A stretch of 37,325 nucleotides of DNA from Chlorobium sp. (GTDB lineage Bacteria > Bacteroidota > Chlorobiia > Chlorobiales > Chlorobiaceae): assembly GCA_005843805.1 (NCBI GenBank), contig SZXY01000073.1, forward strand, positions 1 through 37,325. The letters are read 5' to 3'. Positions 535 through 9,802 of the stretch are shown piece after piece. The first letter of the stretch is position 1; each line of letters starts with the position of its first letter. The translations under genes were made by a program, and so were the position numbers. The notes under the pieces are model-generated. The model was given only the letters and a program-made list of their open reading frames with translations, did no database searches and had not been told where the DNA came from.

Positions 535-939
535 ATGGCCGAAGCTATTGTGAGAACTATTCTGGAGCATTTTCCGGAAACTTTGGCCGTTTATCTCTTT
601 GGCAGCTTTGCGACCGGGGATGAAAGGGCGGATAGTGATGTGGATATTGCCTTGCTGCTGCCGCACAAGAGTTCTGTCACCACTGTGCAGCTTGCGATGA
701 GTGATGGTCGGTATGAACTGGAGCAGCTTGTGGGTCGCCAGGTTGATCTCCTGAACCTGAGGATGGTTTCGACGGTCTTTCAAAAGGAAATAATCATGAC
801 CGGTCGTGTGCTTTTCTGCTGTGACCGTTTTGTCCTTGATGAGTTTGAAATGCTTACTCTCTCATTTTATCAGAAACTTAATGAAGAGCGGGCAGGCATT
901 CTTGCCGAAATTGAACGAACAGGAGTAATCATTGCGTGA
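535..939 (+). CDS. mntA: MntA-type minimal nucleotidyltransferase antitoxin
   Basis: A 134-residue protein of the DNA polymerase beta-like minimal nucleotidyltransferase family. The signature GSx10DxD is exact: Gly23-Ser24, then Asp35 and Asp37, with Asp71 (VDLLNL) as the likely third metal-binding acid. In characterised HEPN/MNT modules such an enzyme AMPylates a tyrosine of the HepT toxin and so silences it. The downstream toxin gene overlaps its stop codon (TGATG), which indicates translational coupling. All catalytic residues are present, so it is probably active. The C-terminal 45 residues are helical and may contact HepT. Confidence 0.88.
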   Translation: MAEAIVRTILEHFPETLAVYLFGSFATGDERADSDVDIALLLPHKSSVTTVQLAMSDGRYELEQLVGRQVDLLNLRMVSTVFQKEIIMTGRVLFCCDRFVLDEFEMLTLSFYQKLNEERAGILAEIERTGVIIA

Positions 940-1364
940 TGTTTGATGATATCATTTTGAATAAAAAGGAGAGTATTGAGCGCTGTATAAAGCAAATCCG
1001 GAAGTATTACGCCTTGCCTTCAGACAAACCCTTTGAAGAGGACTTCATGCGTCAGGATGCCATCGCGCTCAATTTGCAGCAGGCATGTGAACAATCCATT
1101 GATCTTGCAAATCATCTCATTAAAGTAAATAAATTCGGATTGCCAAAAGAGAGCAGGGAGTGTTTTTCAATTCTCGCTGAAAGGGGAGTTATAGAGAGTT
1201 GGCTTGCCCGGAACCTTCAGGGTATGGTTGGATTTCGCAACACGCTTGTCCATCAATACCAGGTAGTTGATCCCGCCATTATGGTTTCCGTCATTGAACG
1301 GCATCTGGACGATCTGATCGTTTTTACCAACGCTGTGATGAATTTTCAGCACAGCGAGGGATAA
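939..1364 (+). CDS. hepT: HepT-like HEPN ribonuclease toxin (DUF86)
   Basis: A small all-helical protein of the HEPN/DUF86 family. The motif Rx4HxY (RNTLVHQY, near residues 100-107) is the catalytic Arg-His pair plus the tyrosine that the partner nucleotidyltransferase AMPylates in characterised systems. It is predicted to be a cytoplasmic RNase toxin. The start is chosen at ATG 939, overlapping the mntA stop; a GTG at 936 in the same frame is an alternative and adds one residue. AGGAG about 14 bases upstream may serve as the ribosome site. It forms an operon with mntA. Confidence 0.87.
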   Translation: MFDDIILNKKESIERCIKQIRKYYALPSDKPFEEDFMRQDAIALNLQQACEQSIDLANHLIKVNKFGLPKESRECFSILAERGVIESWLARNLQGMVGFRNTLVHQYQVVDPAIMVSVIERHLDDLIVFTNAVMNFQHSEG

Positions 1365-1553: not shown

Positions 1554-1910
1554 TCAAATTGATCCCTTACAGTTAGGAGCACCACAAGAACATTCGAAAG
1601 GTGCTGCTATTGCGGACTCATTGAGTGAGTAGTCGAAGGTGATCTCATCACCGATATTAATATCTCTGAGAGCGATCATAAGCTCTCGCTGTTTGTCAAT
1701 GGAGCAGTTTGGATCACAATGATGGTTGACATATCGGCCAAATGGATGATCAATGTGTCTCTTGGCTAACTCAATAGTCCTGAGATCCCGAGCTGAACTT
1801 TCTTCACCTATGCTGAGATCCATTACTATTTCACCTTCTTTGTAAAAATTGACCGCATAGACTCCCAGAAATCCCTTGCCTTTACCAACACCAATACCAA
1901 AAACTTTCAT
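1554..1910 (-). CDS. Stand-alone SET-domain methyltransferase, 118 aa
   Basis: A minimal SET domain. An N-terminal glycine-rich segment (GIGVGKGKGFLGVYA, about residues 5-19) matches SET motif I for S-adenosylmethionine. The pseudoknot motif VNHHCDPN lies near residue 61, GDEITFDYS near residue 87, and a post-SET Cys triad (CSCGAPNC) at the C-terminus can form the usual zinc site with the Cys of the NHxC motif. SET enzymes methylate lysine side chains. It is the last gene of the minus-strand cluster, 126 bp after the ABC exporter; that AT-rich gap may carry its own promoter. The substrate is unknown; the gene context suggests it acts with the ATP-grasp-SET fusion. Confidence 0.85.
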   Translation of the reverse strand: MKVFGIGVGKGKGFLGVYAVNFYKEGEIVMDLSIGEESSARDLRTIELAKRHIDHPFGRYVNHHCDPNCSIDKQRELMIALRDINIGDEITFDYSLNESAIAAPFECSCGAPNCKGSI

Positions 1911-2036: not shown

Positions 2037-3794
2037 TTAACTGGTGCTGGTCAAACCGGTTTCTTCAAGTTTTTCGGAGTGATTCCAAAAACGCACATAC
2101 AAACCGTTATTGTTTAACAGTTGGGTATGACTGCCTTGTTCGACGATAGAGCCTTTGTCCATGACAAAAGTCATATCGGCTTCAACTGCCAAATTAAGTT
2201 TATGGGTAATTGCCACTATTGTGCATTGGCTTCGAAGTTTCAGGATGGTTTTCAGGATATCCTGCTCTGTCAGCGGATCGAGCGCTGAAGTGGCTTCGTC
2301 AAGAAGCAGCAGCAGTGGTTCACGCACCAAAGCGCGAGCCAGTGCAATACGCTGACGCTGTCCACCCGACAACAGCCCGCCTGATTCTCCGCACAATGTT
2401 TCGTATTGCTCTGGCAATGACATTATGAAGTCATGTATTTCTGCCTGCTTTGCAGCTTTTTCAATGGCTTCCTGGTCTGCCTCAAGTTTTCCCATGCGAA
2501 TGTTCTGTGCAATGGAGAGGTTAAAGAGATTGACTTCCTGGGCAACAACGCCTATGCAACTGCGAAGTAACTGGGGATTGACCAGGCGGCTTTCCATTTT
2601 GTTTATAAGGATATGCCCGGTTGTTGGCTCATAAAAACGCAGTAGTAAATTGATGAGCGTGGTTTTGCCTGCTCCGCTGGGCCCGACGAAAACGGTAAAG
2701 CTTTTTGGTTCTATCTGGAAGCTGAGGTCGTTCAACACCGACTGGCCGTTGCCATAAGAAAAACCAACATGGCGATACTCAATTGCCCCGGTAAAGCGAA
2801 CCAATTCATTGTCATTGTGCGGCTCTTCCGGGGGAAGAGGTACTTCGAGCACCTCCTGCAGGCGCTGCATGGCGGCTTTGGCTGAAGACAGGTTTGGGAT
2901 TATCCAGGTCATGTGGTTAATCGCAGCACTCATGCTGACAAAAATGATCTGGTACGAGACAAGGGCGCCAACCGACATCTTGCCCTGCATTACAAGCAGC
3001 CCTGCAGCAAACAGGACAAGTATATTTAAGAGCAAAAACGCCAGATTGGGCATCCGCTGTGATATGTAAGAGAAAAAATTGGCTCTGCTGGCAACTGTAA
3101 CGAATTGGTTCAACTGATCACGGTATTGCCCGGTGACGTGGTTTTCCAGTCCGTAAGCTCGGATCATTTTAAAGGCACGCAGATGTTCCTGTAAAAATAT
3201 TCCCATCTGCCCGTTATAACTACACAATGCATAATTGGCACTGTTGGTTTTTTTTGCCAGCAGATATGGTGAAGAGAGGCAGACAAGTATACCAAGGAGT
3301 ACGCCGGAAAATAAGAGTGGACTTAGTTGCAAGAGCAGCGCTGAGGAGATCAGTAATTCACCTATGCTGAGGAATGCAGCAGGCAATACGATCACCAGGG
3401 CGTTATCAACATTTGTGGCATCCGAGGTAAACCTTGACATCAAATCGCCAGTGCTTTGCCGCTCATGGTATTCGAGTGGAAGCAGTTGCAAGTGGCGGAA
3501 CAGGTCGTGGCAAAGGTCGCTGAAAATTTTGGAACCATATTTTGCCCAGTAGAAATCACAGGTGACGGAAAAAAAGCTGTAAACCACACCACCCAATCCA
3601 AAGAGAGCGAACAGCAGAAGAAAAATATCACTCTTTTTCTGGAGGATAACATCGTCAACCAGAAACTTGAGGCTATAGCGCAATCCTGCCTCATAGCTGA
3701 ACTCGACAGTTAATCCCAGCATGATGAACAGTACGTGCCAGCGATAAGGCCGAATGTAGTGCCACAGGTCAGTGGCAAACTTGAGATTACTCAT
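2037..3794 (-). CDS. MsbA-like ABC exporter (fused permease and ATPase)
   Basis: A 585-residue half-transporter: an N-terminal transmembrane domain of about six helices (residues about 18-310) followed by a nucleotide-binding domain. Walker A is GPSGAGKTT (371-379), the ABC signature LSGGQ (475-479), Walker B LLLLLDE ending at the catalytic Glu500, and the switch His is His531. The architecture is that of type IV exporters (MsbA, lipid, peptide and cyclic peptide exporters), acting as a homodimer in the inner membrane. There is no N-terminal C39 leader peptidase domain. It begins 38 bp after the ATP-grasp-SET gene on the same strand, so it is probably the exporter of whatever that enzyme makes. 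Confidence 0.93.
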   Translation of the reverse strand: MSNLKFATDLWHYIRPYRWHVLFIMLGLTVEFSYEAGLRYSLKFLVDDVILQKKSDIFLLLFALFGLGGVVYSFFSVTCDFYWAKYGSKIFSDLCHDLFRHLQLLPLEYHERQSTGDLMSRFTSDATNVDNALVIVLPAAFLSIGELLISSALLLQLSPLLFSGVLLGILVCLSSPYLLAKKTNSANYALCSYNGQMGIFLQEHLRAFKMIRAYGLENHVTGQYRDQLNQFVTVASRANFFSYISQRMPNLAFLLLNILVLFAAGLLVMQGKMSVGALVSYQIIFVSMSAAINHMTWIIPNLSSAKAAMQRLQEVLEVPLPPEEPHNDNELVRFTGAIEYRHVGFSYGNGQSVLNDLSFQIEPKSFTVFVGPSGAGKTTLINLLLRFYEPTTGHILINKMESRLVNPQLLRSCIGVVAQEVNLFNLSIAQNIRMGKLEADQEAIEKAAKQAEIHDFIMSLPEQYETLCGESGGLLSGGQRQRIALARALVREPLLLLLDEATSALDPLTEQDILKTILKLRSQCTIVAITHKLNLAVEADMTFVMDKGSIVEQGSHTQLLNNNGLYVRFWNHSEKLEETGLTSTS

Positions 3795-3832: not shown

Positions 3833-5311
3833 CTACGTTAGTTTTGATGACATTCGAGTAAGCCGTGTTTTGACATAATCTGAAACATGCCCTTCGTAGC
3901 GCAGCATAAAGGGGAGTGTGGCATCATTGCCTGTAATGTGGTGACGGCACTCCGCTTCACCGCACTCGCATTCAAATTCTTCCATCGTAGCGTGGCAGAA
4001 TGTTGCATAATCGAGAGTGATTTGTTCACCAGAACCGATAAAACGGCGGGCAACGAGATTGAGGTTTTCTAACCAGGCATTGGGATTGCAAGAGTGGTTA
4101 ATGGGCTTCCAGTCACGAGGATTTTTACTCCACATCACCCAGATTTCATCGGTGATCGGGTAAGCATATTGCCGAAGCCAGCGCAGGTTTTGGCTGTCCC
4201 AATGTTTTTCCGCATAGCTTAGCGATACCAGAACATGCTCTTGTTCTTCAAAGGCTTCGATAAGTTCGCCCGGCAGAATATCCCGGGTTGCGTACATTCC
4301 ATAAGCCTTTCGCGGGTAAAATTTTATCTTCCAGTTTTTAATGCGGTTCTGGCAGCGTTTCCATGCTGCTTCCTGCAGCAGCCGAAGAAATTCCCTGTGC
4401 CCATCTGGATAATTGAGCAGGATGAAATCAGCGCTTCCCGCATCTTCCGGGCTGTAGAAGACTCCGCAATTGGGGTTGATTTCCAGCATAAACAACTCTC
4501 CGTCAGCATTCATCCTGATATCGCACCGGCCATAGCCAGAGCCGTTCAAACCAGTGAACATTTGAGAAGATATGGTTCGAAGACGATTGTCAAGTTCCGG
4601 GTTATCTACCGGAAAGCAGTTCATGTCCTGGAAGCTGGCCCATTTCAAATCGAAGTGCTTGAAAGACTCTCCTTCTGGAAATGAAAACTCTACGGATGGG
4701 AAGACGACAGGGTTGGAAGGGTCTGCAGAATTCTCTGCGACCAACACTGTAAACTCTCTGCCTTCAATAAATTCTTCAATCAATGCCTCGCCAAACTCCT
4801 TGATAATTCGGTTGGCTTCAACGTGCAGCTCGATTGGTGTTTCTACACGGGAACTCTTTGTCATGCCAATGCTTGCATAGCTGTTTGGATGCTTGACAAT
4901 GAGGGGAAAACGTAAATTCTGGCCAGCTTCCCTAATATCAGCCTCTGTTTTAACAAAGCGATGCAGCGGAGTATCGATGCCGAAGGAGCGTGCCACACGT
5001 TTCATATCTTCGCGTGTCGGATCGTAAAAATCAGAAGCTGCACCGGTAAACGGAGCATTAAAATTTTCAAGTGTCTGCACTACCTCTATACCAGCACAGT
5101 CTGAGTCAAATGAGCCATCGCACAGATTGATGAACAAATCGAAGCCCTGCTGGATGAGTGCCCGAACCTGTTGAACGGCAGTAGCTTTATGAATGTCTGC
5201 CATTTCAACGTCATGATCTGTCAAGTACGGTTTTATACCTCTTAAAGGATCGTAATCTTTCGTTGGTGAGTCGGAATACTCATAGGAAGAGTAGAGTACA
5301 CATAGTTTCAT
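3833..5311 (-). CDS. ATP-grasp ligase fused to a SET methyltransferase domain
   Basis: A 492-residue two-domain protein. Residues about 1-320 form a D-Ala-D-Ala-ligase-like ATP-grasp enzyme: an N-terminal subdomain (INLCDGSFDSD, EVVQTLE, PFTGA), the ATP lysine Lys140 (PLIVKHPN), the IEEFIEGRE hinge (about 178-186) and metal-binding Asp264, Glu277 and Asn279 (LEINPNCG). Residues about 328-460 form a full SET domain: AYGMYATRDI, NHSCNPN (405-411), GEQITLDY (428-435) and post-SET CECGEAEC (448-455). The predicted chemistry is ATP-dependent amide bond formation and lysine methylation. ATG 5311 is preferred; TTG 5320 is an upstream alternative. It lies 9 bp after the upstream SET gene's stop. The substrate is unknown. 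Confidence 0.88.
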   Translation of the reverse strand: MKLCVLYSSYEYSDSPTKDYDPLRGIKPYLTDHDVEMADIHKATAVQQVRALIQQGFDLFINLCDGSFDSDCAGIEVVQTLENFNAPFTGAASDFYDPTREDMKRVARSFGIDTPLHRFVKTEADIREAGQNLRFPLIVKHPNSYASIGMTKSSRVETPIELHVEANRIIKEFGEALIEEFIEGREFTVLVAENSADPSNPVVFPSVEFSFPEGESFKHFDLKWASFQDMNCFPVDNPELDNRLRTISSQMFTGLNGSGYGRCDIRMNADGELFMLEINPNCGVFYSPEDAGSADFILLNYPDGHREFLRLLQEAAWKRCQNRIKNWKIKFYPRKAYGMYATRDILPGELIEAFEEQEHVLVSLSYAEKHWDSQNLRWLRQYAYPITDEIWVMWSKNPRDWKPINHSCNPNAWLENLNLVARRFIGSGEQITLDYATFCHATMEEFECECGEAECRHHITGNDATLPFMLRYEGHVSDYVKTRLTRMSSKLT

Positions 5312-5320
5312 AGCAGTCAA

Positions 5321-5827
5321 TCAATTAGTATGAGGTTCATTAACCGGTCGTTGTTCCGATAGATGCCCATGAAGTTTTTCCATGATATGGGGTGTAAATT
5401 TGTATCGGGGCAGCACCTCCTTGTTGAGATGCATCGCGCCTTTAATTTTTCCCAAACAGTTAGCACTTCGGCACCCGCAATCGAACACCTGCTCCATAGC
5501 CCATTCAGTCGAAGGATAAAAAAAGGTGATCTCTTCGTTCGCTTCGATATCACGAAGGCAGATAAACTCATGACGATTCACATCGACATAAATGTTAGGG
5601 TCACAACTGTGATTGAGATATTGAAGGAATTCTGGTTCGAGGTGAATATGGCAATGATGGTCTATTTGCATAGAAAGATAGGTGGGGTGCGTCACATATT
5701 CGCCGACAGAAAACCCATGTAATAACGATCCTGATAAATGACGGCAGGTTGTTCGCAGATGTTTTTGGCCTGAGAGAGGATCGATATAAAGGCCAAGTTT
5801 ATCCGTAACATCAGATAATTTCATCAT
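5321..5827 (-). CDS. Stand-alone SET-domain methyltransferase, 168 aa
   Basis: First gene of the SET/ATP-grasp/exporter operon. It contains LNHSCDPN, then NEEITFFYPSTEW (the second half of the SET pseudoknot with its tyrosine) and a post-SET cysteine cluster (CGCRSANC) that should bind zinc with the NHSC cysteine. A C-terminal extension of about 45 residues follows. The N-terminal SET motif I is poorly conserved. The start is placed at the tandem ATG ATG (5827/5824), because the longer reading frame back to 5908 adds a hydrophobic, non-family segment; a GGTGG six bases upstream could act as ribosome site. It is predicted to be a SAM-dependent lysine methyltransferase; the substrate is unknown. 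Confidence 0.82.
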   Translation of the reverse strand: MMKLSDVTDKLGLYIDPLSGQKHLRTTCRHLSGSLLHGFSVGEYVTHPTYLSMQIDHHCHIHLEPEFLQYLNHSCDPNIYVDVNRHEFICLRDIEANEEITFFYPSTEWAMEQVFDCGCRSANCLGKIKGAMHLNKEVLPRYKFTPHIMEKLHGHLSEQRPVNEPHTN

Positions 5828-6335
5828 GTTGACCACCAGTTTGAGCTTGTACCTGCATTGAACAGGCACGTAAATAAAAAAAATAACGGTTAATAATTCC
5901 GGACTCATCCTAATCCGCAGAAACCAGCCATGATGCTTGTAAGTAAATATTTTTACTTCTCTTGAGGTATCTTTCGGAAAAGAATTCCGGCAAGTATAGT
6001 GATAATTTCAGCACAATAAAAAGAGTTTTCGAACAGGCATGTGAGCTGATTTTCACACCGGAAAAATCAAGGTGATCGTGAAGGAGTTTAAATAATAAAA
6101 AGCGCGGCTTGAAGTCGTGCAGTAGAATTATCGGGCAGAATGGAGCTGAGCCTATTCAGGACATGCAACTCAATGGTTAAATATGGTTTTCCGGTTTGCC
6201 TTTGCGGGTTAGAGAGCGGGGAGTGCACTGGCAGTTTTACGACTGCTTTTTTTTATCCAACGGGAATTTTTTTGAAAAGGGTGTTGTTTTTTCTTAAACT
6301 GATACTATATTGATATCAGATAAATCAATTATGAG
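5828..6335. other. Divergent intergenic region between the SET operon and the Rrf2 operon
   Basis: About 500 bp without a convincing gene. It must hold the leftward promoter of the SET/ATP-grasp operon and the rightward promoter of the Rrf2-Hcp operon. A 57-codon plus-strand frame from 6140 was judged spurious because it runs through the promoter and operator just before 6336. The inverted repeat at 6299-6319 is listed separately. Confidence 0.5.
6299..6319 (+). promoter_or_regulatory. Inverted repeat, candidate Rrf2 operator
   Basis: CTGATA (6299-6304) and TATCAG (6314-6319) are perfect inverted arms around a 9-bp AT-rich spacer containing TATATTGA, 17 bp before the Rrf2 start codon. Placement across a likely -10 region suggests an autoregulatory operator. 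That the adjacent Rrf2 protein binds here is inference. Confidence 0.45.
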
Positions 6336-6791
6336 ATGAAAGTACTGACCAAAAAAACGGATTACGCAATACGGGCACTGTTGTCGCTGGCTGCTTCAAA
6401 GGGGAGTTATGTGTCGGCGAAAGCCATTTCGGCGGAGCAGGGTATTCCTTACCAGTTTTTGCGTGGGTTGCTGCAGGAGATGATTCGCCATAATCTGGTC
6501 TCTTCGAAGGAGGGGGTTCAGGGTGGGTTTATGCTCAGCAAGAACCCTGATGAGATTGGGCTCAAGCAGTTGATCGGGATTTTTCAGGGGAAGGTTGAGG
6601 TGTCGGAGTGCATGTTTCGCAAGCAGCTTTGTGCAAACCGTGCCAAGTGTGTGCTGCGTCATGAAATTATGCGCATCGAGCAGGTTGTCAATAATGAGTT
6701 TGATAAAATTACCATCGGCAAGTTGCAGAGGGATCTCGATGCGGTAAACGCGCTAAGGCCTGCATCGGGCAATGTTGAGGAGCCGAAATAG
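6336..6791 (+). CDS. Rrf2-family Fe-S transcriptional regulator
   Basis: A 151-residue Rrf2 protein. The N-terminal winged helix (KKTDYAIRALLSLA, residues 6-19, and the FLRGLLQEMI recognition region) is typical. Three cysteines, Cys92, Cys99 and Cys105 (C-x6-C-x5-C), match the cluster-binding loop of NsrR/IscR-type members, though the first spacing is slightly wider than in IscR. Such proteins sense NO, iron-sulfur status or redox. It is the first gene of an operon ending in hcp, so a role as an NO or nitrosative-stress sensor is likely. It probably autoregulates through the inverted repeat just upstream. The last 45 residues carry no recognisable domain. Confidence 0.88.
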   Translation: MKVLTKKTDYAIRALLSLAASKGSYVSAKAISAEQGIPYQFLRGLLQEMIRHNLVSSKEGVQGGFMLSKNPDEIGLKQLIGIFQGKVEVSECMFRKQLCANRAKCVLRHEIMRIEQVVNNEFDKITIGKLQRDLDAVNALRPASGNVEEPK

Positions 6792-6818
6792 ATAACCATA
6801 GAGAGGAGTGATTGAGAA

Positions 6819-7718
6819 ATGAAACGGCAGATTATTTCGATAGATGAAAAAAAGTGTACCGGATGCGGTGACTGTATTCCTGGCTGTCCTGAGGGTGCTT
6901 TGCAGGTGATCGATGGCAAAGCTCGGCTGGTCAGCGATCTATTTTGTGACGGCCTTGGTGCCTGTATTGGTCATTGTCCGACTGGTGCCATGACGATAGA
7001 GAGTCGTGAAGCGGTGCCCTATGATGAAAAGAGGGTGATGCATGAAAGTATAGCAAAGGGTGGAGCGAATGTCATTGCTGCGCATTTGCGCCACCTGATC
7101 GATCATGGTCAGAACGATTTTCTTCAGGAGGCGCTTGACTATCTCGATGAAGCGGGAATTGCCAATCCGCTTGAGCAGCAGTTGGTGGAGAGTCATCAAC
7201 CGGAGGTTCAGTCGTCGAATAGGGCGAATCACCATGTTCATCATGGAGGTGGATGCCCTGGCAGCAAGATGATGGATTTCAGTTCGAACGGGAGTCGTGC
7301 AACGTCGTCTGCCTCTTTGCCGGCTCAACCCAGAGAGAGCGCACTGAGGCAGTGGCCTATTCAGCTTCATCTCGTTTCACCGATTGCGCCTTATTACCAG
7401 CGTTCCGATCTCTTGCTTGCGGCTGATTGTGCAGCTTTTGCCGTCGGTGATTTCCATGGGGCCTTCATGAGTGGAAAAAGCCTGGCGATTGCCTGTCCAA
7501 AGCTTGATTCAGGGATGGAGATATATGTCGAAAAGCTTGTGGCCATGATCGATATGGCTCATCTCAATACCATCACGGTGGCGATTATGGAGGTTCCCTG
7601 TTGCGGCGGTCTGATGTCGATTGTTGCGGAGGCTCTTCAGAAGGCTTCACGCAAGGTGCCGGTGAAAAAGGTTGTCATCAGCCTGCAGGGTGAGATTTTA
7701 TTGGAAGAGTGGGTTTGA
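6819..7718 (+). CDS. Hcp-associated ferredoxin-like iron-sulfur protein
   Basis: A 299-residue cytoplasmic protein. The N-terminal ferredoxin domain has a full CxxCxxCxxxCP motif (Cys13, 16, 19, 23). The second motif has only three cysteines (Cys43, 49, 53; position 46 is Leu), so it may hold a [3Fe-4S] cluster or use a non-cysteine ligand. A His/Gly-rich linker (about 130-150, HHVHHGGGCPG) leads to a C-terminal domain with further cysteines (Cys204, Cys226, Cys261-Cys262 in PCCGG) that could bind a third centre. It lies 27 bp after the Rrf2 gene and is the likely electron donor to Hcp, in place of the Hcr flavoprotein of enterobacteria. That role is inferred from context. Confidence 0.82.
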   Translation: MKRQIISIDEKKCTGCGDCIPGCPEGALQVIDGKARLVSDLFCDGLGACIGHCPTGAMTIESREAVPYDEKRVMHESIAKGGANVIAAHLRHLIDHGQNDFLQEALDYLDEAGIANPLEQQLVESHQPEVQSSNRANHHVHHGGGCPGSKMMDFSSNGSRATSSASLPAQPRESALRQWPIQLHLVSPIAPYYQRSDLLLAADCAAFAVGDFHGAFMSGKSLAIACPKLDSGMEIYVEKLVAMIDMAHLNTITVAIMEVPCCGGLMSIVAEALQKASRKVPVKKVVISLQGEILLEEWV

Positions 7719-7740
7719 ACGCAGCCATAAGGAGAGAACT

Positions 7741-8169
7741 ATGCTGAAAGATGCGCTGGGAGGGTATCGCGGTACGGCTGTTGAGATAAGCCGTATCATT
7801 GTTGAACAACCTGACAATGAGGAGGCCTATTATAACAGGGGAAATGCAAGGAGCAGTTGTGGGGATTATGAGGGTGCTGTGAGTGATTATACAATGGCGC
7901 TGAAAATCGGGTTGAGGTTCCGTGAAGCAATCACGGCTTATGGAAACCGGGGAATGGCCAGAGTGCAAACGGGTGACTTTGAAGGCGCAATCAACGATTT
8001 CAGCGAGATAATTGAACGCAAGCCCCATAACTGGAGGATTTTGCGTACAGCATATAAAAACAGGGCTTTGGTTAAAGAACAGAAAGGTGACAGAGAGGGT
8101 GCGGCAATGGACAGGAAGATGATTGTCCAGATTTTGCCTGCTTATTCAACAATAAATAATGGAGAATAG
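7741..8169 (+). CDS. TPR-repeat protein in the hcp operon
   Basis: A 142-residue protein made almost entirely of about three tetratricopeptide repeats ([57 protein letters not shown]), preceded by a short helix. TPRs mediate protein-protein contacts; no catalytic motif or signal peptide is visible. The start at 7741 is supported by AAGGAGAG a few bases upstream; a longer frame back into the ferredoxin gene is not needed. It lies 22 bp after the ferredoxin gene and 4 bp before hcp, so it is co-expressed and could bridge the electron donor and Hcp. That bridging role is speculative. Confidence 0.82.
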
Positions 8170-8173
8170 AACA

Positions 8174-9802
8174 ATGGGAATGTCTTGTAATCAGTGTCAG
8201 GAGAGCATCCTTAGTACCGGGTGTACAGCGAGAGGAGTCTGTGGCAAAGACGAAATGACGGCGAAACTCCAGGATGTGCTTGTCTATGCAACCGAAGGGC
8301 TTGCGGTTTCGGCTGAGTTGTTGCCGGGTCAGGTGGAGCGAAGTGTCGGTCAGCTTGTCAGTGAGTCGCTCTTTGTAACCGTTACCAACACAAACTTCGA
8401 TGAGGATGCCATTGTTGAGCAGATTCGCAAAACGCTTGCGATGCGTGATGCGCTCAATGCCAGGCTGCCTCACCCCTCAACCCAGGATGTCGCACTGTGG
8501 AGTGGAAGTTCAAGGGAGGATTTTCTTCTTAAAGCTATAACGGTCGGTATTGAGAGTCTGAGCGAAAACGAAGATCTTCGTTCCCTGAAGAGTCTTGTGC
8601 TTTATGGTCTCAAGGGATTGGCGGCCTATACCGATCATGCTGCGGTGCTTGGATATCATGATGACGATATTTATGCTTTTTATGTCAAGGCACTTGTGGC
8701 TCTTACCAGAGATCTTGATGCCGATGAGCTGACCGATCTGGTCATGGAAACCGGTGGCAGTGCAGTCAAAGCTATGGCGCTGCTTGACCGGGCAAACACT
8801 GAAACTTATGGTAATCCTGAAATTACCGAAGTTAAAACTGGTGTTGGCAATAATCCCGGCATCCTGATTTCGGGCCATGATCTTCGTGATCTTGCCGATC
8901 TCCTTGAGCAGACAGAAGGTAAAGGCGTTGATGTCTATACCCACTGTGAAATGCTTCCTGCCCACTCTTATCCTGCTTTCAAAAAGTACAGCCATTTTGT
9001 AGGTAACTATGGTGGTTCATGGTGGTCTCAGGACAAGGAGTTTGACTCGTTCAATGGTCCGATTCTCATGACCACGAACTGTATTGTGCCTGTTCGTGAA
9101 GCTTATCGCAAAAGAATGTTTACCACTGGATTGGCTGGTTATCCTGGACTTAAGCATATACCTGCAAGGGCTGAAGGCGCTTCGAAAGACTTTTCGGAGC
9201 TGGTTGAGCTGGCAAAAAGCTGTGCACCTCCAAAAGAGATCGAAAACGGCAAAATTATTGGAGGTTTCGCTCACAACCAGGTACTCGCACTTGCCGACAA
9301 GGTGGTCGATGCTGTCAAGAGTGGTGCAATCAAGCGGTTTATCGTGATGGCTGGCTGTGATGGTCGCCATGCTTCTCGTCACTACTATACCGATGTCGCT
9401 GCAGCCTTGCCGAAGGATACGGTGATTTTAACCGCAGGGTGTGCCAAGTATCGTTACAACAAGCTTGAACTTGGCGATATTGGTGGTATTCCGCGTGTGC
9501 TCGATGCAGGTCAGTGCAATGATTCCTATTCGCTTGCAGTCATTGCACTTAAGCTCAAGGATGTTTTCGGCATGGAGGACATCAACGAGCTGCCGATCTC
9601 TTTTGATATTGCCTGGTATGAGCAGAAAGCGGTGACGGTGCTTCTTGCGTTGCTCTTTCTTGGGGTAAAAGGCATTCGCCTCGGCCCAACACTTCCCGAG
9701 TTCCTTACGCCTAATGTGGTCAGCGTACTGGTTGAAAAATTTGGCATCAAACCAATCGGCAAGGTTGAGGCTGATGTTGAGGCTATGATGGCAGGCGCAT
9801 AA
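8174..9802 (+). CDS. hcp: Hybrid-cluster protein (hydroxylamine / nitric oxide reductase)
   Basis: A 542-residue Hcp. The N-terminal cysteines Cys5, Cys8, Cys17 and Cys23 (C-x2-C-x8-C-x5-C) are the class I pattern of strict anaerobes, which binds a [4Fe-4S] cluster. The hybrid Fe-S-O cluster motifs follow in order: [39 protein letters not shown] and GQCNDSYS. Hcp reduces hydroxylamine in vitro and NO to N2O in vivo in E. coli, where it also acts in protein S-nitrosylation. GGAG at 8161-8164 supports ATG 8174; an ATG at 8159 would overlap the upstream gene. It is the last gene of the operon, followed by a strong terminator. Confidence 0.95.

Follow-up and report, generated by a model that had tools for sequence, protein, structure and literature searches.

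What would one polypeptide chain do with both an ATP-grasp ligase and a SET methyltransferase domain? The question is raised by a gene on the minus strand of a contig of Chlorobium sp., a green sulfur bacterium (SZXY01000073.1, assembly GCA_005843805.1), positions 1 to 37,325 of which are referred to here as the window. An earlier reading made without database searches (the sequence-only reading) had described a single chain carrying an apparently active Ddl-like ligase and an apparently active SET domain. Both Pfam domains indeed score above their cut-offs in one 492-aa frame, Dala_Dala_lig_C with 65.9 bits (E 4.7e-18, cut-off 24) and SET with 40.2 bits (E 5.1e-10, cut-off 22.4), and the residues that it had named (Lys140, Asp264, Glu277, Asn279 and the zinc cysteines at 448-455) were confirmed in the 492-aa numbering. 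The ATG lies at 5311 and the stop codon ends at 3833, while an in-frame TTG at 5320 provides an alternative upstream start and a 495-aa ORF. Coordinates of the gene, its parts and its neighbors are collected in Table 1. The predicted model of the whole protein (AlphaFold, 27-sequence alignment) has a pLDDT of 87.4 and a pTM of 0.72.

Table 1. Features of the fusion gene and the surrounding cassette (window positions)
Feature	Position	Strand	Description	Basis
Fusion gene	3833..5311	minus	492 aa, ligase half and SET half	Pfam, homologue alignment
ATP-grasp (Ddl-fold) half	4358..5311	minus	residues 1-318	Pfam, predicted model, invariant residues
SET half	3836..4357	minus	residues 319-492	Pfam, alignment, fold match
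K140 codon of fusion	4892-4894	minus	ATP-grasp half	
R262/D264 of fusion	4520-4528	minus	ATP-grasp half	
E277/N279 of fusion	4475-4483	minus	ATP-grasp half	
NHSC 405-408, D434-Y435, post-SET C448, C450, C455			SET half of fusion	
SET-A	5321..5824	minus	stand-alone SET, directly upstream of fusion	Pfam SET 1.6e-9
ABC exporter	2037..3794	minus	585 aa, membrane and ATPase domains	Pfam ABC_membrane, ABC_tran
SET-B	1554..1910	minus	stand-alone minimal SET, 118 aa, last cassette gene	Pfam SET 1.5e-10

A frameshift joining two separate genes, or an assembly artefact, could produce such a frame. A search for the same domain architecture, which had been proposed as a check, recovered the fusion in Chlorobium and in several other bacterial phyla. 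In eight other Chlorobium genomes it is full-length and without internal stop, at 84-88% identity to the window protein. Seven more Bacteroidota genomes contain it at 36-53% identity, and outside Chlorobium it is found in Bacteroidota, Chloroflexota, Gemmatimonadota, Planctomycetota and Acidobacteriota at 35-54% identity, in MAGs and isolates alike. Because the uninterrupted fusion recurs in all of these genomes, a frameshift, a two-gene origin and an assembly artefact are ruled out.

Within Chlorobium the fusion is an accessory gene that nine of the 65 genomes possess. Among GTDB representatives, a scan located it in Chlorobium ferrooxidans, Caldilineaceae, Longimicrobiales and other Gemmatimonadota, Planctomycetota, Acidobacteriota and many Chitinophagaceae. 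A search of plasmids gave only unfused ATP-grasps, none of them spanning 80% of the query. Across 27 full-length homologues K140, R262, D264, E277, N279, H406, C408, C448, C450 and C455 are invariant, and Y435 is almost so. Values of dN/dS ranged from 0.06 to 0.13 in the ligase half and from 0.06 to 0.23 in the SET half, so both are under purifying selection. Conservation across phyla, together with ratios well below 1 for each half taken alone, indicates that the fusion is real and that both of its halves are maintained.

The fold of the ligase half is complete in the predicted model, with pre-ATP-grasp and ATP-grasp parts, and residues 1-324 matched solved Ddl structures with a best Z of 30.4 (rmsd 2.3, 297 residues aligned). 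The same genome encodes a separate true Ddl (G000:C181, 356.5 bits, above cut-off), and alignment with this protein was used for the comparison of residues. The fusion has the whole fold of Ddl, its ATP/Mg residues (K140, R262, D264, E277 and N279) and its omega-loop lysine (K223). However, it lacks the N-terminal GGRSAEHE segment of Ddl. In the alignment the first Ser of the Ddl GSS motif is lost, with YAS or GDS found instead, the omega-loop Tyr is Trp or Thr, and the PGFT..S segment is replaced by an invariant segment of the CGVFY...GSAD type. In Ddl the Glu of GGRSAEHE, the first Ser of GSS and the omega-loop Tyr serve the first substrate; E15, S150, Y216 and S281 are the established substrate-binding residues of E. 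coli DdlB. The fusion also falls below the NCBIfam cut-offs for PRK01372 (76.1 bits, cut-off 243) and TIGR01205 (68.1 bits, cut-off 245.65). With the substrate residues lost, these cut-offs missed and a separate Ddl in the genome, the ligase half is not a D-Ala-D-Ala ligase. Retention of the ATP/Mg residues and omega-loop lysine, combined with loss of the Ddl substrate residues, points to an ATP-grasp amide-forming ligase with a substrate other than that of Ddl. The term Ddl-like is therefore apt for the fold and the ATP site, but not for the substrate residues.

The SET half carries the NH-C motif (N405, H406, C408), the catalytic-site tyrosine Y435 and a post-SET CxCxxxxC motif (C448, C450, C455). 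The GxG SAM-binding motif is GYG in the family consensus and AYG in the window protein (KAYGMYA), the second glycine being kept. By sequence, the nearest solved protein to the fused SET, SET-A and SET-B alike is BurB, which uses SAM to methylate free methionine to S-methylmethionine (PMC12542666). For SET-A the lead is large (9.2e-14 with the next hit at 4.5e-4; 54.7 versus 23.1 bits). SET-B matches BurB at 1.1e-11, just ahead of histone SETs, and the fused SET at 3.7e-9, only about 6 bits ahead of histone enzymes. Structure matching of the fused SET left BurB (Z 10.6) and ASH1L (Z 11.0) tied, SET domains generally giving Z of about 10-11. The premise that SET methyltransferases act on proteins is not supported at this locus, given a free-methionine S-methyltransferase as the nearest solved relative of all three domains, although the fused SET's lead is small.

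BurB and MSMT, SET-domain methionine S-methyltransferases of the DMSP pathway (PMC12542666), share an NHSC-like motif, the catalytic-site tyrosine and CxCxxxxC with the cassette SETs. BurB is small and stand-alone, as is SET-A. Unlike the fusion, it is a single-domain tetramer without a ligase. The fused SET also has an insert of its own, longer than in BurB, in which W371, Y382, P385, W394 and W401 are invariant across the 27 homologues; this insert is a candidate substrate pocket. Since BurB contacts methionine through main-chain atoms (PMC12542666), a specificity of the BurB type cannot be read from sequence. No BurI-, BurD- or BurE-like pathway genes were seen in the cassette.

The fusion appears to have a single origin. 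The 27 fused SET halves group together in a single clade (100/98), separate from SET-B and from the SET-A clade (99/94), which has 23 members across phyla. The midpoint-rooted ligase tree divides the fusion family between a Bacteroidota-type clade and one that includes the window protein, and fusions are found in both. Nested among them are 19 SET-less relatives, one of which, a cyanobacterial protein, lies within the Bacteroidota-type clade. Midpoint rooting leaves some room for repeated gain, but the grouping of all SET halves in one clade speaks against it. Together with the presence of fusions on both sides of the basal split of the ligase tree, this grouping is most simply explained by one ancient fusion from which the SET half was then lost three to four times.

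In Chlorobium the fusion belongs to a cassette of four consecutive minus-strand genes, in the order SET-A, fusion, ABC exporter and SET-B. Only 9 nt separate the SET-A stop codon from the fusion ATG. The SET-A ORF opens at 5908, yet its homologues begin near 5824-5827. The other Chlorobium cassettes share this gene order on every contig of sufficient length, and their flanks mostly differ; the exporter is kept beside the fusion, and SET-B is 86-92% identical to its counterparts in those cassettes. Aside from one core SET, nearly all SET genes in the 65 Chlorobium genomes belong to the cassette. The exporter has no fused peptidase domain in Pfam searches, and no ORF of 15 aa or more that might encode a precursor peptide is shared by the Chlorobium cassettes in flanks of 1.5 kb. 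The two further same-strand SET genes and the exporter had gone unmentioned in the sequence-only reading.

Several other features were noted around the cassette and in the genus. The core Chlorobium SET protein (about 155-175 aa, G000:C163:2297-2584) lies apart from the cassette and has homologues in 60 of 65 genus genomes. An MntA/HepT type VII toxin-antitoxin pair, both members scoring above NCBIfam cut-offs, adjoins the cassette on the plus strand (window 535-1364). On the other side, also on the plus strand, an Rrf2-type regulator, a ferredoxin-domain protein and a hybrid-cluster protein (hydroxylamine reductase) stand in a row (window 6336-9802).

A core of SET-A and fusion recurs in Chlorobium, in Chitinophagaceae and in a Caldilineaceae MAG, where SET-A immediately precedes the fusion. 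In Chitinophagaceae, SET-A is followed by a second ATP-grasp (about 370 aa), then by the fusion and an ABC-membrane-region protein (PF13748). This last protein (L066 6384-7274, L081 10517-11413) is without an ATPase domain, and no adjoining ATPase gene was seen. Roughly half of the fusions found outside Chlorobium lack an adjoining SET-A or exporter. In a cyanobacterial MAG, a SET-less ligase of the fusion clade stands in a run of genes (L124 358-10993) with an NRPS module (A-MT-T-TE), an ectoine synthase-like cupin, two ATP-grasps and an HlyD protein, apparently an uncharacterised biosynthetic cluster. Both extra ATP-grasps of this run group with the partner ATP-grasp of Chitinophagaceae. The run also carries a cyclic-nucleotide-binding protein. 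The neighbors of SET-less ligases in Anaerolineae, Planctomycetota and Acidobacteriota show no common context.

We propose, with a probability of about 0.62, that the fusion is a bifunctional enzyme of a small-molecule pathway by which a small methylated amino-acid amide or peptide is made and exported. The N-terminal half would use ATP to convert a carboxylate into an acyl phosphate and join this to an amine, in a substrate pocket unlike that of Ddl. The fused SET and SET-A, along with SET-B in Chlorobium, would use SAM to methylate an amino-acid side chain, whether of a building block before ligation or of the ligated product, and the ABC exporter would move the product out or across the membrane. 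The analysis shows the architecture, its conservation, the common descent of the fusions, their linkage in a cassette and the kinship with BurB; from these we infer ligase and methyltransferase activity, one pathway common to both, the order of steps, the product and its export. Pointing to a small molecule are the conservation of the fusion and its catalytic residues across phyla with purifying selection on both halves, and the position of BurB as best solved relative of all three SETs. The recurrent core, accompanied in Chitinophagaceae by a second ATP-grasp and an ABC-type membrane protein, points the same way, as do the biosynthesis-and-export setting of the SET-less cyanobacterial clade member (NRPS, HlyD-type), the missing conserved short ORF in the cassette flanks and the near confinement of SET-A and SET-B to the cassette in Chlorobium. 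Counting against it are the fusions that stand without SET-A or an exporter next door, and the narrow BurB lead and tied structure scores of the fused SET, which leave room for a protein substrate.

The sequence-only reading had gone on to suggest that ligation and methylation act in sequence on one substrate, possibly a peptide built on lysine. A shared substrate is plausible; it is not required, since ligase relatives persist after three to four losses of the SET half. Nothing in the cassette directly supports lysine as the building block. The sole hint comes from another Chlorobium genome, where a SET gene of 127 aa that lacks the post-SET cysteines stands in a row with genes for a lysine-2,3-aminomutase and a Ddl-like ATP-grasp on the minus strand (L046, G074:C19, 6663-9402). 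Because this row is a single case, seen in one genome only, and its SET is of another subfamily, it is no more than a hint of SET and ligase going together with lysine chemistry. A more specific proposal, to which we give somewhat less than even odds, is a widespread new metabolite class. Its precursor, a free amino acid (lysine-derived or methionine) or a dipeptide, would be methylated by the SET half and passed to the Ddl-type ligase of the same chain, with SET-A performing a second methylation and with an exporter dedicated to the pathway.

The enzyme might instead modify proteins, its ATP-grasp half attaching an amino acid to a protein in the manner of tubulin tyrosine ligases, and its SET half methylating a lysine of that protein or of a partner. 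Characterised SET enzymes mostly methylate protein lysines, the fused SET resembles KMT2/ASH1L-type domains almost as closely as BurB, and eukaryotic TTLL12 joins a SET-like domain to a TTL (ATP-grasp) domain (PMC3520985). Yet the ligase fold is of the Ddl amino-acid-ligase type, Pfam matches to the fusion with E up to 0.1 do not include TTL (PF03133), the cassette links the gene to an exporter and a BurB-like SET-A, and a SET-less member of the ligase clade stands in an NRPS cluster, all of which make protein modification unlikely. Tailoring of a ribosomal precursor by the ligase and SETs, followed by export in the manner of graspetides, would agree with the common RiPP layout of an ATP-grasp ligase and an ABC exporter, and peptide lysines are possible targets of SET methylation. 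Known graspetide ligases are of the RimK/MdnC-like type, however, whereas this ligase is of Ddl type; with no short ORF shared by the Chlorobium cassettes in the 1.5 kb to each side, and an exporter without a fused peptidase domain, a RiPP pathway seems decidedly improbable.

One half might also be non-catalytic, the ligase being a real enzyme and the SET sensing SAM or binding a methylated substrate, or the reverse, as in the dead TTLL12. Retention of the ligase through three to four losses of the SET half would suit such an arrangement, as would the alanine in place of the first GxG glycine in the window protein, and the invariant W371, Y382, W394 and W401 of the SET insert could bind a methylated cation. 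Nearly all 27 fusions nonetheless keep the NH-C motif, D434-Y435 and the three post-SET cysteines, in contrast to TTLL12 with its missing critical residues, and we regard a non-catalytic half as improbable. Barely credible is a cell-wall role, in which a variant D-Ala-D-Ala ligase would supply precursors and the SET would be an unrelated addition. The top profile matches are Ddl models and the fold match reaches Z of about 30, but the scores lie far under the Ddl cut-offs (76 versus 243 and 68 versus 246 bits), and the cassette is accessory, occurring in 9 of 65 genomes. This candidate was rejected on the missed cut-offs, the absent Ddl substrate residues and the true Ddl elsewhere in the genome.

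Among open-licence papers no published bacterial fusion of ATP-grasp and SET was found, TTLL12 being the only such combination. TTLL12 likewise combines ATP-grasp and SET, but it has the opposite domain order, a TTL-type ligase and a SETD3/4/6-like domain. It lacks critical residues and displayed neither methyltransferase nor tyrosination activity (PMC3520985). It resembles the bacterial fusion in architecture but arose independently. The fusion accordingly joins two known kinds of enzyme in a combination that we did not find described in the open-licence literature, although an earlier mention is possible.

The fusion is real, ancient, widely inherited and part of a conserved cassette, and is a good candidate for the source of a new metabolite. 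SET domains have been studied almost solely as histone or protein lysine methyltransferases, BurB and MSMT being the exceptions in the literature searched. A conserved SET-ligase fusion, accompanied by a second SET gene and an exporter, in at least six phyla points to an overlooked small-molecule branch of SET proteins and to an uncharacterised metabolite. If the more specific proposal is true, no catalytically active ATP-grasp-SET fusion would precede this one, and small-molecule methylation would be a major role of bacterial SET proteins. With the fusion, SET enzymes can be assayed directly for action on free amino acids, and two of its hosts, Chlorobium ferrooxidans DSM 13031 and Lacibacter cauensis, are cultured.

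Clusters of lysine-2,3-aminomutase, GNAT and paired Ddl-like ATP-grasps resemble the fusion cassette in placing Ddl-like ATP-grasps with amino-acid tailoring enzymes. They differ in that their ATP-grasps form a separate clade, no SET is fused and acetylation is implied rather than methylation. Adjacent pairs of Ddl-like ATP-grasps beside lysine-2,3-aminomutase were seen at three loci (L128, L130 and L145), with a GNAT gene in L128 and L145, which suggests a family of beta-lysine-based metabolites.
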